Origin: Chitinophagales bacterium | GTDB lineage: Bacteria; Bacteroidota; Bacteroidia; Chitinophagales; UBA10324 | Assembly (NCBI GenBank): GCA_019694975.1 | Contig: JAIBAY010000002.1 | Span: 447,252 to 511,251, forward strand | Length of the DNA stretch: 64,000 bases | Direction: 5' to 3' | Shown here: positions 3,456 through 19,128 of the stretch, one piece after another | Layout of the letters: every line of letters begins with the position of its first letter | How positions within the stretch are numbered: position 1 is the stretch's first letter | Made by a program: the position numbers and the translations under genes | The notes under the pieces: model-generated | Databases searched by the model: none | Told to the model about the DNA's origin: nothing | What the model saw: only the letters and a program-made list of their open reading frames with translations

Positions 3456-3998
3456 ATGCGCAATAAACGACCGGAAAAAAGCGATTACCCGGAATACTAT
3501 GAAAGATATATTGCCAAAGCCGGCAATAATCCACTGACTGATCTGAAAAATAACCATAAGAAGTTGCGCCGCAAGTTGCTGCGCCTTGGCCGTAAGGATT
3601 TGCAATACCGTTACGCAGAAGGCAAATGGACCATCAAGGAGATTCTGCTGCACATCATGGATGCAGAAAGAGTATTCTGCTACCGGGCCTTGCGTTTTTC
3701 CAGAAACGATGCTACCGAACTGCCCGGATTCGATGAAAATGCCTGGACTCCCAACAGCAATGCTAACGGGCGCAAACTCAGGTCGATCTTGCGGGAATAT
3801 GATGCAATGCGGAAACATACGATTGAACTCTTCTCCAACATGAATAAAGAGATGCTGAATCGGTCAGGCATAGCTAACGGAAAGCAAATCTCCGTAAGGG
3901 CACTCCTGTTCATCCTCGCAGGACATGAAATTCATCACATGCGGATTATCGTGGAACGTTATATTGAGAAATCTTACGTGGCTCCGCCGGCTGTATAA
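3456..3998 (+). CDS. DinB-family (YfiT-like) putative metal-dependent hydrolase/transferase
   Basis: 180 residues with the DinB/YfiT four-helix-bundle pattern. The first metal-binding histidine is in IKEILLHIMDAE (about residues 62-73) and the second cluster is in LAGHEIHHMRIIVERY near the C-terminus; the spacing matches the three-His metal site of the family. In Bacillota and Actinobacteria related proteins act as thiol-S-transferases, some of them using bacillithiol. This genome carries bshB1 at 42078, so a bacillithiol-dependent role is possible but inferred. No signal peptide; cytoplasmic. It follows the DUF4287 gene by 114 bases on the same strand. Confidence 0.75.
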   Translation: MRNKRPEKSDYPEYYERYIAKAGNNPLTDLKNNHKKLRRKLLRLGRKDLQYRYAEGKWTIKEILLHIMDAERVFCYRALRFSRNDATELPGFDENAWTPNSNANGRKLRSILREYDAMRKHTIELFSNMNKEMLNRSGIANGKQISVRALLFILAGHEIHHMRIIVERYIEKSYVAPPAV

Positions 3999-4113
3999 GC
4001 TATTCACACAATTTTCAGGATCAGTGATTTTTGCAACAGCGCCTTTTGTTTTTCACGAGTAATGAAATCCTACCCTATTTCAAAAAAGCAAAAGATATTT
4101 ACTTCCTCACAGA

Positions 4114-11996: not shown

Positions 11997-13403
11997 ATGT
12001 TGCGTTTACCTGTAACCTTCGCCGTTTTCATTATTGCCGCATCATGTTCTTCAAAACAGGTTAAGCAGCCTCCCGTATTAGACAATAAAACGGTCGTTGT
12101 TGCTCAGCTAAAAGAAAACCTGCCGGTAGATACCGTTATCCGCAGCATTCCTTGCAAGACAGCTCCGGCACAATCATTCAGCCTTTATCTGCCTCCATCC
12201 TACTCTTCCAATGTGCCGTTCCCGGTGCTAATGTTCTTTGATCCGCATGGTGATGGTTCGTTGCCGGTTTCGAAATATCATCTGCTTGCCAGGAAGTTTG
12301 GTTATGTGCTGATTGGTTCCAACAATGCCAGGAACGGACTTACTCCTGATCAGACCAATAACATTGCTGCAACGTTAACGCAGGATCTGCGGACGAGGAT
12401 TGCTGCAGATGAAAAACGCATTACGTTGGCCGGCTTCTCCGGTGGTGCGAAGGTGGCACTTGCCTACACCTACAGTCATCCTGAAGTGCAACATGTAATT
12501 TACGCAGGCGCCGCCATTCCTCTGCCGCTATCCGCACCTCCGCTTGCCATGCTTGGCTTTGCAGGCATTAATGACATGAACTATACCGACCTGCTTGCAT
12601 TCGATCAGTCAATCAAAAAAACAGCGATCTCCCACCTGCTGATTGAATGGAATGGTAAACATGAGTGGCCAGATACGGCTGCCTTCCGGGATGCATTTTA
12701 TTGGCTTTCCTTCGAAGCAATGCGAAGCAGTCAAGAGTTTGATGAATCCCTGCTGCAAACGTTCAGTGAAGCGATAGCAAAAAAGATTGCCGCCACAAGT
12801 GAACCTGTAAGCAAAGCGATGCAGTTGAATAAAGCTATATTCTTTCTGCAGGGTATTACAGCTACAGATCGATATCAAGTGCAGCTTGATGCACTTATGG
12901 CGGATAATGCATTTCAGGCTGCACTGCAACAAAAGCAGCAGGCATTACAGACGGAATCAAGATTAAAACAAAATTATTACGCAGCCTTCCAGGACAAGGA
13001 CCTCCAGTGGTGGAAAAATGAAATAGCAAGGATGAAGCAAATGACCGACCCTTCCACGACAGCCATGTATCAACGGTTACTCGGATTCATCTCACTGGCC
13101 TGTTATTCCATTTCAGGCAATGCCATCGCGCAAAGCCAATGGTCAACGGCGGAGAAGATGCTGGCTATTTATAAATTGGCGGATCCAATGAATGCCGATC
13201 AGCCATTCTTTGAAGCCTGCTACTTCGCCCGGCTGGGAGAAAATAAAAATGCATTAATTTCTTTGAACCGTGCTGTGGATTTGGGTTTAAAAGATCCGGA
13301 TAAAATATTGCATGAACCCGCTTTGCTTTCTTTGCAAAACGAACCTGGCTTTATCAGCTTGGTTGCAAAACTGCAGCAGCAGACCATATCTTCGCACCGA
13401 TGA
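11997..13403 (+). CDS. Lipoprotein with alpha/beta-hydrolase fold
   Basis: 468 residues with a lipoprotein signal; lipobox IIAASC gives Cys17 as the lipid-modified residue. Residues ~50-240 have an alpha/beta-hydrolase pattern: SFSLYLPPSYSSNVPFPVLM, FFDPHGDGSLP, and the nucleophile elbow TLAGFSGGAKVALAY (G-F-S-G-G). A candidate catalytic His follows in EWNGKHEWPDTAAF. This resembles esterase/PHB-depolymerase-like or dienelactone-hydrolase-like proteins. The remaining ~220 residues are helical, with a last part resembling TPR-type ARLGENKNALISLNRAVDLG and LHEPALLSLQNEPGF. Substrate unknown. Same direction as pyk and the OmpA gene, with a 62-base gap after pyk. Confidence 0.7.
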   Translation: MLRLPVTFAVFIIAASCSSKQVKQPPVLDNKTVVVAQLKENLPVDTVIRSIPCKTAPAQSFSLYLPPSYSSNVPFPVLMFFDPHGDGSLPVSKYHLLARKFGYVLIGSNNARNGLTPDQTNNIAATLTQDLRTRIAADEKRITLAGFSGGAKVALAYTYSHPEVQHVIYAGAAIPLPLSAPPLAMLGFAGINDMNYTDLLAFDQSIKKTAISHLLIEWNGKHEWPDTAAFRDAFYWLSFEAMRSSQEFDESLLQTFSEAIAKKIAATSEPVSKAMQLNKAIFFLQGITATDRYQVQLDALMADNAFQAALQQKQQALQTESRLKQNYYAAFQDKDLQWWKNEIARMKQMTDPSTTAMYQRLLGFISLACYSISGNAIAQSQWSTAEKMLAIYKLADPMNADQPFFEACYFARLGENKNALISLNRAVDLGLKDPDKILHEPALLSLQNEPGFISLVAKLQQQTISSHR

Positions 13404-14423: not shown

Positions 14424-14480
14424 ATGACTTATTATTAAAGTTGCTGAAAGAATGCAGCAGAATTTCCATTTTTTTTGAAG

Positions 14481-14600
14481 CTATCTCAAAACAGGCAAGC
14501 ATTGCGGTCATGCCGAATTTATTTCCGCATCTGTCAATGAATGAAAGAGATCCTGATCCCGGGCAACCGGGACTGGATTACTTCGGGTATTTTGAGATAG
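14481..14600. repeat. 120-bp interspersed repeat with terminal inverted repeats, copy 1
   Basis: The element begins CTATCTCAAAA and ends with the exact complement TTTTGAGATAG; including one more base on each side the inverted ends are 12 bases (GCTATCTCAAAA at 14480, TTTTGAGATAGC to 14601). A second copy of the same length lies at 18957..19076; ungapped comparison by eye gives about 95 of 120 identical positions. Inside are a short imperfect palindrome (TGCCGAATTTATTTCCGCA) and the segment AGAGATCCTGATCCC. It resembles MITE- or REP-like elements dispersed in Bacteroidota chromosomes. No flanking target duplication is evident. Confidence 0.8.
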
Positions 14601-14743
14601 CCTCCAGTCGCTGTAAGAAGTGGCCTTAAAAAACTATTCACTCACAAAGCTGCGAAGAGAAAATTCAACTCTCCAGTTTTTTTCCTTTTCAGTAGTGTTA
14701 GTTGAATGGGAATTCCTACTTTCATCTTCATAAAATCCGATAC

Positions 14744-16180
14744 ATGAAATCAATTTTTCTGGTAATCTCAATGGCCATTGCGTTCTCGATCAACTGTCCG
14801 GGTCAGAATAAAAAGCTTTCGCCCAATAAAGCTGCAGTGCTTGCCTCTGTTGCAGCACATCAGCAGGAACTGACTGATCTGAGCGATAAGATCTGGGGCT
14901 ATGCAGAAGTTGCCTATCATGAAACGCAATCTTCCAAAGTGCTCGCCGACTATGCAGCAGCACAGGGATTCACCGTACAACGGGACGTTGCAGGCATCCC
15001 AACAGCATTTACAGCCACTTATGGATCCGGTAAACCTATCATCGGTATCATGGGGGAATTTGATGCCTTGCCAGGACTTTCGCAAAAGGCCCAACCTACC
15101 AAAGAAGCACTTATGGAAGGTGCGCCAGGACATGGCTGCGGACATAACATGTTTGGTGCCGGCAGTTTAGGTGCAGCACTCGCTATCAAAGAATTGATGG
15201 CAGAAGGCAAACTAAAAGGCACGATCCGATTTTATGGAACACCTGCAGAAGAAGACGGTGCAGGCAAAGTGTACATGGCACGCGCAGGATTGTTTAACGA
15301 TCTTGATATATGTCTTGACTGGCATCCTGACTATGAAAACAAAGCCAATATGCAAAGCTCGCAGGCTGTCACAGACTACCTGGTTGAGTTCAACGGAAAA
15401 AGTTCACATGCAGCCGCTGATCCGTGGAATGGAAGAAGTGCATTAGATGCCGCTGAACTGTTTACCACCGGTGTCAACTTCTACCGCGAACATATGAAAC
15501 CAAGTGCACGGATACATTATGTGTATAAGGAAGCCGGCAATGTCCCGAATGTAATTCCCGATAAAGCATCCGTCTGGATATGGATGCGCGATTCAAAACG
15601 AACCGGTGTAGCTGTTTTGGAAGAGCGTGTCCGCAATATCGCACAGGGTGCGGCGCTTATGGCAGGCGTGCAATATGATATCAAACTCAACAGCGGATTG
15701 TATGAATTGCTGGTGAATGAAACAGGAGCAAAAGCATTACAGAAGAATATGGAACTGGTGGGCCCCATCACCTATACAGAAGAAGAAACAGCCTTTGCTA
15801 AGAAAATTCAGGAAGAATATGGATTACCTGCTAAAGGAATGAAAGGTGATATCAAACCATTGGAACAAACGCGGCCTGATCCTGACGGCGGATCAACTGA
15901 TGTGGGCGACATCAGTTGGATAGTTCCGGAAATTACGCTGCTTGCTGCTACGGCACCTTATGAATCTCCGTGGCATTCATGGGTAGTGGTGGCATGCGGC
16001 GGTATGTCCATCGGCCACAAAGGACTGCTGTTCGCTTCCAGATCACTCGGCCTAACAATGGTTGATTTATTTGAGAATGAAACCTTGCGCAATGAAATCA
16101 AAACTGAATTCATGAAAAGGAAGGGTGATGAAGTATGGAAACCGTTATTGCCTGATGGTCCGCCACCGGTTGGGAATTGA
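14744..16180 (+). CDS. Exported M20-family amidohydrolase (AbgB-like)
   Basis: 478 residues from the ATG at 14744, which opens a signal peptide (MKSIFLVISMAIAFSINCPG); the earlier TTG at 14702 would bury it. The M20 metallopeptidase/amidohydrolase signature residues are present: MGEFDALPGL, GHGCGHNMFGAGSLGAAL (metal-binding His and Cys), FYGTPAEEDGAGK (catalytic Glu pair), CLDWHPD and the C-terminal PYESPWHSWVVVACGG. The dimerisation domain is NGKSSHAAADPWNGRSALDA. Closest in outline to p-aminobenzoyl-glutamate hydrolase subunit B (AbgB) and aminoacylases, but here exported to the periplasm. The exact amide substrate is unknown. With the following gene it is flanked by two copies of a 120-bp repeat. 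Confidence 0.88.
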   Translation: MKSIFLVISMAIAFSINCPGQNKKLSPNKAAVLASVAAHQQELTDLSDKIWGYAEVAYHETQSSKVLADYAAAQGFTVQRDVAGIPTAFTATYGSGKPIIGIMGEFDALPGLSQKAQPTKEALMEGAPGHGCGHNMFGAGSLGAALAIKELMAEGKLKGTIRFYGTPAEEDGAGKVYMARAGLFNDLDICLDWHPDYENKANMQSSQAVTDYLVEFNGKSSHAAADPWNGRSALDAAELFTTGVNFYREHMKPSARIHYVYKEAGNVPNVIPDKASVWIWMRDSKRTGVAVLEERVRNIAQGAALMAGVQYDIKLNSGLYELLVNETGAKALQKNMELVGPITYTEEETAFAKKIQEEYGLPAKGMKGDIKPLEQTRPDPDGGSTDVGDISWIVPEITLLAATAPYESPWHSWVVVACGGMSIGHKGLLFASRSLGLTMVDLFENETLRNEIKTEFMKRKGDEVWKPLLPDGPPPVGN

Positions 16181-16296
16181 TGCTTGTAAAAAACATTTGC
16201 TGATATTCCATAGCATTACCGGACATGATTAATCATTGACTCAACTTCAGCACATTTGCGTAATGATGCATGATCAATAATACATTAATAACTCCC

Positions 16297-18828
16297 ATGA
16301 AACCACTGATGCTGTTGACTGCACTGTTGGTTTGGTGCACCACGAATGCACAACGCATACCCGTTTTGCCGCAGATTGATCTTCCGCACAATTACTACTA
16401 CCGTGAATTATATCTTCCACAACTAACCAGCGGTCCTTCATCGGTAACATGGTCACCGGATGGAACGTTGTTGGTATTTTCCATGAATGGAAGTCTTTGG
16501 CAACAACCGTTATATAGTGACACTGCTATTCAACTTACAGACGGTGATGGCTATGACTATCAACCCGACTTTTCACCCGATGGAAAGCAAATCATCTTTG
16601 TCCGTTACGATGGCAATTCGATAGAACTGCTCCTCTACGACCTTTCACAAAAAACAACTATCAGCTTAACCGCAAACAAAGCAGTGAACCTCGAGCCACG
16701 CTGGTCGCCCGATGGAAAAAAAATAGCATTTGTCTCTACCGCGGGAACCGGGCATTTTCTGTTATACACTGCTACGATTGAAAATAACAAGCTGATTGGG
16801 CTGACCTGCGTAACTCCGGACAGAAAAAGTTCTGTAAAACGATATTATTACAGTGCTTACGATCACGCTATCAATCCTGCATGGTCGAAGGATGGAAAGA
16901 AAATTTATTTCATTTCCAATCATGAAATTATTCATGGTACGGGTGACATGGCAGTAAAAAATATGTATACCGGTGATGCTCCTGCAACGATACTGCACGA
17001 AGAAACATCCTGGCGAATGAAGCCTGATGTTTCACCCGATGGTACGAGGATCGTTTACAGCAGCTATCTTGGCCGCAACTGGCATCAGCTATGGATGATT
17101 CCGGCTGATGGTGGTTATCCAATGCAGCTTACTTACGGAGCTTACGATAACTCTTCACCGCGATGGTCACCCGATGGCAAAACGATTGCCTTCATCTCCA
17201 ACCGCGATGGTAATACTGCGCTCTGGCTGCTTGATGTCTATGACGGCCATCAGCAATTGGTTGCTCAATCGCATCTGCAATACCTGCGGCCCCATGTACC
17301 ATTAATGATGAAAGTGCTGGATGAAAATGGCAATGAGGTTGCAGCGAGAATCAGCATCACCGACAGCCGGGGTAAATTTTATTCGCCACAGGATGCATGG
17401 ATACAAGCTGATGATGCAAGATTTCCTGCTGCACAAAAATTCGAATCACATTATTTCCATTATAAAGGATTGATTAAAGTAGCCGTTCCGGACGACCGGA
17501 CAAACATTACCGTGTCGCACGGTCCAAAATATGCAATAGAAAAATTGCAGTTACAAGGCGTTGCAGCGCTGCTTGATACTGTTGTCATCCGTTTGAAAAG
17601 ACTATCGCTTCCTGCCGGCACCGGCAACTGGTGGAGTGGTGATGTGCATGTGCACATGAACTATGGCGGCAATTATAGAAACACGCCGGAGCAGCTGGTG
17701 AAGCAGGCAGCAGCGGAAGACCTTCAGGTTGTATACAACCTGGTGGTAAACAAAGAGCAGCGTATTCCGGATATTGATTACTTCTCCACCACCGCCGATA
17801 AAGCTTCTGATGATAATGTATTGTTGCTGCATGGCCAGGAATTTCATACAAGTTATTGGGGTCATCTTGGTTTGCTTCATCTCAATGACCACCTCATCCT
17901 GCCCGATTATGCCGGCTATCCGCATACAGGTGTTGCCAGCCTATTCCCCGACAACACTTTTATAGCAAACCGCGCAAAGCAACAACATGCATTGACCGGC
18001 TATGTGCACCCTTTCGAACAATCAGAAATTTTTCCTGATCAGTCTCCGGCACTCACAAATGAACTACCGGTTGATGCCGCACTGGGAAATGTAGATTACT
18101 ATGAACTGCTTGGCTTCTCCGATCATAAAGCATCGGAAACGGTTTGGTATAAATTACTGAATTGCGGTATCCGTATACCTGCAGCAGCCGGCACAGATGC
18201 AATGGCCAATTACGCAAGTTTAAGAGGACCTGTTGGATTGAACCGCGTGTATGTGCAGGCATCCGGACCAATCGAACAGGATACGTTTGAACAGAAATTG
18301 CGCGATGGCAAAAGTTTCGTTACCAATGGCCCGCTCCTATACTTTTCTGCAGCAAACAAATTGCCGGGTGACAGCCTGATAGTATACACCGGAAGCAGCT
18401 TACTCTCCTACCGGGGATTTTTCCGCAGTGCTGTTCCGGTTGATATAGTGGAAGTGGTATGGAACGGTGAAGTGGTGGCAAGCTATCCGCTCACCGGATC
18501 AAAAACCAAACTTGACTTAAACGGCACGCTGAAAGTAAACGGGCCCGGCTGGTTACTGCTGCGGGCAGGCAGTGCAACGGCGCACCCCGATTTGTCTGAC
18601 ATCTATCCTTATGCCAGCACCAATCCCATTTATGTTACCGTACCCGGAATACAACTGCGCTCAAAATCATCCGGAGAATATTTTTTGAAATGGCTCGATC
18701 AACTGGCAAATTCAACTGTGCTGCATGATGCCTATCGCAATGAGGAAGAACGGCAGACGGTACTCCGTCATATCAGCGATGCACGCAAGTACTATACATA
18801 CTGCGTGGAGCATTCCACCATTCGTTAA
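16297..18828 (+). CDS. Secreted TolB-like propeller fused to CehA/McbA-type PHP metallohydrolase
   Basis: 843 residues from the ATG at 16297, which starts the signal peptide (MKPLMLLTALLVWCTTNAQ). Residues ~45-320 hold about six PD40/TolB-like blades, each with an SPDG-type motif: VTWSPDGTLLVFS, FSPDGKQIIFV, RWSPDGKKIAFVS, WSKDGKKIYFIS, VSPDGTRIVYSS and RWSPDGKTIAFIS. From ~445 on the protein turns into a PHP-like metallohydrolase: GDVHVHMNYGGNYRNTPEQL, LLLHGQEFHTSYWGHLGLLH, GYVHPFEQSE and AAAGTDAMANYASLRGPVG supply the His/Asp/Glu metal ligands of the CehA/McbA family. Those relatives hydrolyse carbamates or processed peptides; here the substrate is unknown. It follows the M20 gene by 116 bases. 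Confidence 0.85.
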   Translation: MKPLMLLTALLVWCTTNAQRIPVLPQIDLPHNYYYRELYLPQLTSGPSSVTWSPDGTLLVFSMNGSLWQQPLYSDTAIQLTDGDGYDYQPDFSPDGKQIIFVRYDGNSIELLLYDLSQKTTISLTANKAVNLEPRWSPDGKKIAFVSTAGTGHFLLYTATIENNKLIGLTCVTPDRKSSVKRYYYSAYDHAINPAWSKDGKKIYFISNHEIIHGTGDMAVKNMYTGDAPATILHEETSWRMKPDVSPDGTRIVYSSYLGRNWHQLWMIPADGGYPMQLTYGAYDNSSPRWSPDGKTIAFISNRDGNTALWLLDVYDGHQQLVAQSHLQYLRPHVPLMMKVLDENGNEVAARISITDSRGKFYSPQDAWIQADDARFPAAQKFESHYFHYKGLIKVAVPDDRTNITVSHGPKYAIEKLQLQGVAALLDTVVIRLKRLSLPAGTGNWWSGDVHVHMNYGGNYRNTPEQLVKQAAAEDLQVVYNLVVNKEQRIPDIDYFSTTADKASDDNVLLLHGQEFHTSYWGHLGLLHLNDHLILPDYAGYPHTGVASLFPDNTFIANRAKQQHALTGYVHPFEQSEIFPDQSPALTNELPVDAALGNVDYYELLGFSDHKASETVWYKLLNCGIRIPAAAGTDAMANYASLRGPVGLNRVYVQASGPIEQDTFEQKLRDGKSFVTNGPLLYFSAANKLPGDSLIVYTGSSLLSYRGFFRSAVPVDIVEVVWNGEVVASYPLTGSKTKLDLNGTLKVNGPGWLLLRAGSATAHPDLSDIYPYASTNPIYVTVPGIQLRSKSSGEYFLKWLDQLANSTVLHDAYRNEEERQTVLRHISDARKYYTYCVEHSTIR

Positions 18829-18956
18829 AGAAACCTAACCGGCAACGTAAGAAAACTGATATCAATCTTTGAGAGGATAGAGTTGATTGATGATTACGAA
18901 TAAGCCTGTCAGTGCACCGATGAATGAAGCAGCTGAAATTGATTTGGTACAAGAAA

Positions 18957-19076
18957 CTATCTCAAAAGATGCAATCGAAGCGATCATGCCGGATTTACTT
19001 CGGCAGCTGTCGATGAATGGAAGAGACCCTGATACCTATCAATCGCGACAGGATGACTCCAGGTATTTTGAGATCG
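18957..19076. repeat. 120-bp interspersed repeat, copy 2
   Basis: Same length and same orientation as the copy at 14481..14600. The left end CTATCTCAAAA is identical; the right end reads TTTTGAGATCG, one base off a perfect inverted repeat. The internal hairpin GCCGGATTTACTTCGGC is better conserved than in copy 1. It sits between the PHP metallohydrolase gene and the convergent efflux operon, so copies 1 and 2 flank the two hydrolase genes as direct repeats. Short open frames running through both copies are by-products of the shared sequence. Confidence 0.8.
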
Positions 19077-19128
19077 CGACTATTAATTTTATTGCCGGCT
19101 TTTATCAGCCATTGCAACTGAAACAATA

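Follow-up and report, generated by a model that had tools for sequence, protein, structure and literature searches.

Two direct repeats around a hydrolase gene pair are probably dispersed copies of a MITE carrying a REP doublet within IS5-type ends

Two same-strand repeats in the genome of a Chitinophagales bacterium lie on either side of two hydrolase genes, raising the question of whether they delimit a mobile gene cassette or stand around these genes by chance. An earlier note, made on the 64,000-nucleotide stretch of DNA that we analysed (hereafter referred to as the window), had described the repeats at positions 14481–14600 and 18957–19076, with inverted ends and an agreement of ~95 of 120 bases. 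Ungapped alignment confirmed this description, with 95 of 120 bases identical, and confirmed that exactly two genes lie between the copies, an M20 amidohydrolase and a propeller metallohydrolase. Chance would not produce a direct repeat of 125 nt at 79% identity, and the genome-wide family described below settles that the repeat is real. The full unit of both repeats is 130 bp, slightly longer than 120 bp (14476–14605 and 18952–19081), and is bounded by a 16-bp terminal inverted repeat with the consensus AGAAGCTATCTCAAAA ... TTTTGAGATAGCTTCT. The features of the locus, in window positions, are as follows.

14476..14605, + strand: MITE copy 1, 130 bp (covariance-model match of 147.6 bits, and alignment), with an OmpA-family gene on one side and the M20 gene on the other
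14476..14491, + strand: left terminal inverted repeat of copy 1, TGAAGCTATCTCAAAA
14507..14532, + strand: REP 1 of copy 1, GTCATGCCGAATTTATTTCCGCATCT, identical to a unit in the contig 7 arrays
14548..14581, − strand: REP 2 of copy 1, in opposite orientation, tag outward
14590..14605, − strand: right terminal inverted repeat of copy 1 (TTTTGAGATAGCCTCC on the + strand)
14744..16180, + strand: exported M20-type amidohydrolase gene, a bystander (PF01546; TIGR01891, 1.2e-69; inferred start codon)
16297..18828, + strand: PD40 propeller and CehA/McbA metallohydrolase gene, a bystander (PF07676; NF038032, 2e-59; inferred start codon)
18952..19081, + strand: MITE copy 2, 130 bp (covariance-model match of 140.3 bits), with the metallohydrolase gene on one side and a convergent outer-membrane efflux gene on the other
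18952..18967, + strand: left terminal inverted repeat of copy 2, AGAAACTATCTCAAAA
18983..19008, + strand: REP 1 of copy 2, tag mutated to ATC
19024..19057, − strand: REP 2 of copy 2
19066..19081, − strand: right terminal inverted repeat of copy 2, outer end decayed (TTTTGAGATCGCGACT on the + strand)

The two repeats belong to a large family. A BLAST search of the 4.3-Mb genome returned 42 matches at ~40 places, and a covariance model built from 31 copies (threshold >70 bits) identified ~81 full-length copies plus a few shortened ones. The earlier note had proposed a genome search to see whether further copies share the inverted ends, and they do: the 16-bp inverted repeat is conserved across 75 copies, the flanks of which are non-homologous. 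Identity to the consensus across these 75 copies ranges from 73 to 96%, with a mean of 88.5%. Nearly all copies are 122–136 bp long and contain no transposase open reading frame; with the 16-bp inverted ends and the ~81 copies, this bears out the classification as a non-autonomous inverted-repeat element. The flanks of the copies are symmetric (AYYA...TRRT), and a search for target-site duplications returned nothing longer than 2 bp, at most a possible TA, leaving a symmetric target preference only. The element was not detected in DNA searches of 40 relatives, two of them congeneric (draft genomes 74% and 86% complete), and it was unmatched among plasmid and phage records. On contig C2 (793 kb), copies are about twice as dense as on the other large contigs (3.4 versus 1.2–2.5 per 100 kb).

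What had seemed special in the earlier note was the flanking arrangement, which would permit excision or duplication of the gene pair, and it had named copies scattered without relation to gene pairs as the observation that would speak against this. We found ~81 scattered copies, and a special relation of the repeats to gene pairs does not hold. Neighbouring copies within 5 kb of each other form ten pairs, compared with 7.1 expected under random placement of 81 copies (p = 0.18). In the family alignment, identity between the two bracketing copies is 76.9%, lower than the 80.3% of an average pair, and they rank only 61st and 46th closest of 74 to each other. The longest identical run that they have in common is 13 bases, shorter than the length needed for efficient bacterial homologous recombination.

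The neighbourhoods of the genes in other genomes point the same way. Three genomes of the family and one further genome of the order encode relatives of the M20 protein (56–69% identity), with neither a metallohydrolase neighbour nor a repeat copy in the stretches seen around them. Relatives of the metallohydrolase, at 30–36% identity, were found only in other families of the phylum, never with an M20 gene adjoining. The presence or absence of the pair as one block, which the earlier note had raised, is therefore not borne out, each gene having relatives without the other next to it; nor is there a relative that has both genes in place without the repeats, because no relative has the pair at all. 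Since the metallohydrolase has no close match among the other 248 searched genomes of the order, its gene may have been acquired or often lost, and nothing ties this patchy occurrence to the repeats.

A composite transposon or gene cassette, with the copies as ends of a 4.6-kb mobile or duplicable M20–metallohydrolase unit moved by transposition or excised by recombination, would account for two direct copies enclosing exactly two genes and for the lack of the metallohydrolase in the other 248 searched genomes of the order. The low pairwise identity with its short common run nevertheless gives the copies no common recent origin, the number of close pairs genome-wide and the separate gene neighbourhoods also speak against a cassette, and we rejected this reading as extremely improbable. 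With ~81 scattered copies at random-like spacing, the position of two of them around the M20 and metallohydrolase genes is a coincidence, and as a bracketed cassette the repeat pair carries no significance.

Inside the terminal repeats, which form a shell, the element holds two inverted palindromes, GTCATGCCG[A/G]ATTTATTTCGGCATCT and, on the other strand, GTCATCCTG...CAGGATCT, with GTC tags pointing outward. This layout matches the head–head (HH) dimers of CGTC-type REPs, which have a CGTC tag, an 8–9-bp stem starting with AT, a 4–5-base loop and tags outside in the dimer (Di Nocera et al. 2013, PMC3733652). The element has in common with these dimers the GTC tag, an 8-bp stem starting with AT, a 5-base loop and two units with tags outward, and in both cases the units flank no RAYT. 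It differs in that an IS5-type shell surrounds the doublet, the tag inside the shell is mostly GGTC rather than CGTC, and the second unit is often longer. Three subtypes were distinguished: the common 130-bp form, a 122-bp form with a short ACAAGTT loop in the second REP, and an ~82-bp form with a single REP.

On contig 7, tandem arrays with units of 175 and 193 bp contain the REP doublet without the inverted-repeat shell.

Contig 7, local stretch positions 2343–2964, 3497–4092 and 12195–12901: REP arrays

These arrays agree exactly with the CGTC-type description in tag, stem, loop and outside position of the tags, and their first REP unit has the same sequence as a form common in the MITE. 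Shell and cargo can thus be separated. The covariance model gave the dispersed copies as full-length with a shell, and shell-less matches fell only in the contig 7 arrays, although the model could miss weak, diverged or short shell-less REPs. The arrays lie at ~108.3–110.1 and 118.2–118.9 kb of the contig, on either side of a large oxidoreductase gene region.

The earlier note had also assigned an internal hairpin to each copy. Copy 1 folds much better than shuffled sequences (z = −4.1) and copy 2 barely does (z = −1.2), so that the claim holds unevenly. RNAalifold gave no covariation support across the family, and there is thus no sign of selection on a folded RNA; hairpin 2 is the least conserved part of the element. 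A structured RNA was rejected on this lack of covariation and of any Rfam match in the region, and an in-frame protein-coding repeat on the reading frame, which is open in some copies and interrupted by TGA in many others.

Placement raises the prospect of a function at gene ends. By the same simple gene caller that makes ~83% of the window coding, 79 of the 81 copies extend at most 30 bp into any called gene, and the remaining two run 36 bp into a gene end. Convergent genes have somewhat more copies between them than expected (22 of 68, whereas such spacers make up ~18% of the intergenic bases of the window). In nine cases, the element starts two bases within the stop codon of a gene, its first bases, AG, completing a TAG stop. 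If copies were retained because they terminate transcription or govern RNA stability at gene ends, such placement would follow, but selection against insertions in promoters and genes explains it equally well. Given also the lack of covariation, the poor conservation of hairpin 2 and the folding of copy 2, no better than that of shuffles, we regard retention for such a function as unlikely.

Other genomes pointed to the probable origin of the shell. We searched the end pattern CTATCTCAAAA-N82..110-TTTTGAGATAG in one genome per GTDB species and found at least 118 matching stretches in other species, against ~0.4 expected by chance (simple arithmetic with equal base frequencies). Among the matches listed are short elements of ~114–140 bp in at least nine phyla: Pseudomonadota, Desulfobacterota, Chloroflexota, Acidobacteriota, Bacteroidota, Actinomycetota, Nitrospirota, Planctomycetota and Verrucomicrobiota. 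Most cross-phylum elements listed have a longer end in common, TA-GAAN-CTATCTCAAAA, the variable base N of which pairs between both ends in 100 of 117 listed elements, compared with 35 expected, in a sample that is non-independent, several genomes supplying many copies.

A single-end scan of 15 genomes bearing these cross-phylum elements yielded elements that carry transposases. A Dehalococcoidia genome contains a 919-bp element with TAGAAACTATCTCAAAA ends, near-identical to those of the MITE, and an IS5-family transposase in two frames (PF13340, 6.5e-23; PF01609, 6e-16). Pontibacter mucosus has a multi-copy element, visible only at the ends of several contigs that stop inside it, with both ends TAGAAGCTATCTCAAAA identical to the MITE consensus and adjoining the apparent start and end of an IS5-type transposase; the 44-residue C-terminal stretch of this transposase scored 20.6 bits against PF01609, slightly short of the curated cut-off of 23. 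On a Leptospira weilii plasmid, an annotated IS5 element carries variant ends, TAGAACCCATCTCAAAA, that are perfectly inverted. Beyond the 16-bp ends, similarity between the MITE and IS5 elements was not significant against shuffles, including a subterminal TACCT that looked suggestive.

No PF13340 (DUF4096) gene was found in the genome analysed here or in 15 genomes of the family, and the MITE family therefore looks stranded. An end scan of the genome returned 146 matches, mostly known copies; among the 100 of these 146 that were listed, few ends were unpaired, and the unpaired ends examined had no transposase nearby. The transposase with the same ends that the earlier note suggested looking for thus exists in other genomes (Pontibacter and Dehalococcoidia, with a variant in Leptospira) and not, as judged by PF13340 matches, in this one. 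Among the other 46 end matches, the genome might still hold an autonomous copy with two-mismatch ends and a non-PF13340 transposase. We take the missing parent IS as a loss, because a stranded MITE need not keep its parent. On contig 12, two solitary end-like sequences (AGAAGCAATCTCAAAA, minus strand) at local positions 2557 and 7139, 4.6 kb apart, have identical local context upstream of similar large genes, which looks like a gene duplication.

A doublet of inverted REPs can also be mobilized by a RAYT (REP-associated tyrosine transposase), in which case the element would be a REPIN and the outer inverted repeat merely part of it. The REPINs of Pseudomonas are ~100–130 bp long, contain two inverted REPs and are non-autonomous with many copies (PMC3116915), all of which applies to the ~130-bp multi-copy element described here, and the genome encodes three Y1_Tnp family proteins.

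C4:456082, C4:460854 and C3:551830: Y1_Tnp (PF01797) RAYT-like genes, two of which read as identical proteins

Each of these PF01797 genes has long inverted repeats of its own on both sides, with no relation to the MITE or its REPs, whereas a REPIN has a RAYT with the same flanking REPs. Moreover, IS5-type inverted repeats lie outside the REPs here, these outer ends match IS5 elements in other phyla, and the shell-less REP doublet was detected only in tandem arrays. With no REPs common to the RAYT flanks and the element, we rejected a RAYT-driven REPIN; its probability is low.

We conclude, with a probability of roughly 85%, that both repeats belong to a family of ~81 copies of a 130-bp MITE composed of an IS5-family-type shell and a CGTC-type REP doublet, inserted by an IS5 transposase since lost, and that their bracketing of the gene pair is coincidental. 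An IS5-family element with these ends would once have resided in the lineage, its transposase (DUF4096 plus DDE) recognizing the 16-bp inverted repeat as a shell. A local REP doublet may then have become enclosed between a pair of IS5 ends, giving a 130-bp unit that the enzyme would have spread to symmetric, TA- and pyrimidine-rich intergenic sites. With the enzyme subsequently lost, the copies, now at ~88% of consensus, would be decaying and presumably immobile. Because shell and cargo are separable and the detected dispersed copies carry the shell, the sequences suggest that IS5-type transposition spread CGTC REP doublets in this genome.

Parts of this picture are already known, namely IS5-derived MITEs in Bacteroidota (PMC4596501) and a MITE holding a GTAG-type REP in Coxiella (PMC5896051). 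The BrickBuilt, MITE293 and MITE700 elements of Porphyromonas gingivalis are IS5-family MITEs with the parent IS still in the genome (PMC4596501), and the same paper cites ATR of Neisseria as another IS5-family MITE. Like the element described here, those of P. gingivalis are non-coding, intergenic and multi-copy in a member of the Bacteroidota, with inverted repeats matching IS5-family elements. Their ends read GAGACCTTTGCA, compared with AGAAGCTATCTCAAAA here, and they have a parent IS and no REP doublet as cargo, whereas here we found a doublet and no parent. QMITE2 of Coxiella burnetii, a MITE with a GTAG-type REP, is 150–190 bp long with 7–11-bp direct repeats and ends of unknown origin (PMC5896051). 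Both QMITE2 and the present element contain a REP and tend toward gene 3′ ends; QMITE2 differs in its GTAG-type REP, its greater length and its direct repeats from this 130-bp, CGTC-type element. For IS5, MITE and REP together, the literature searched yielded only the P. gingivalis, Coxiella, CGTC-REP and REPIN precedents. The end sequence (among the 20 of 36 literature matches listed), its cross-phylum spread and CGTC-type REP doublets in an IS5 shell were not found in the open literature searched, mostly without subscription journals; ISfinder may well already list the IS5 end type.

CGTC-type REPs were described in 2013 as having no dedicated transposase (PMC3733652), and the shell-plus-REP element offers a concrete, testable answer to how they spread: inside IS5-type ends. 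One MITE end sequence also extends across at least nine phyla with unrelated interiors, a form of sharing that surveys based on whole-element similarity would be expected to miss. A broader reading, which we advance tentatively and consider rather doubtful, is that IS5-family transposases serve generally as vehicles for palindromic repeats, the shell TAGAANCTATCTCAAAA having repeatedly taken up local palindromes in at least nine phyla, CGTC-type REP doublets among them. If true, this vehicle would supply the transposase that CGTC-type REPs are said to lack.

The interiors of the cross-phylum elements differ from lineage to lineage. Within the listed set, a loose count of GTCAT..ATGAC pairs gave a weak excess (8 versus 1.8), and for this reason we adopted a strict stem-loop definition. 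Strict CGTC-type REPs were present in 8 of 118 listed interiors, compared with 0.02 in shuffled interiors, and in the listed set their density was 12 in 12 kb of shell interior versus 19 in 865 kb of surrounding DNA. Bifidobacterium jacchi has short elements with the same 11-base end and much longer inverted repeats, which probably belong to a different IS.
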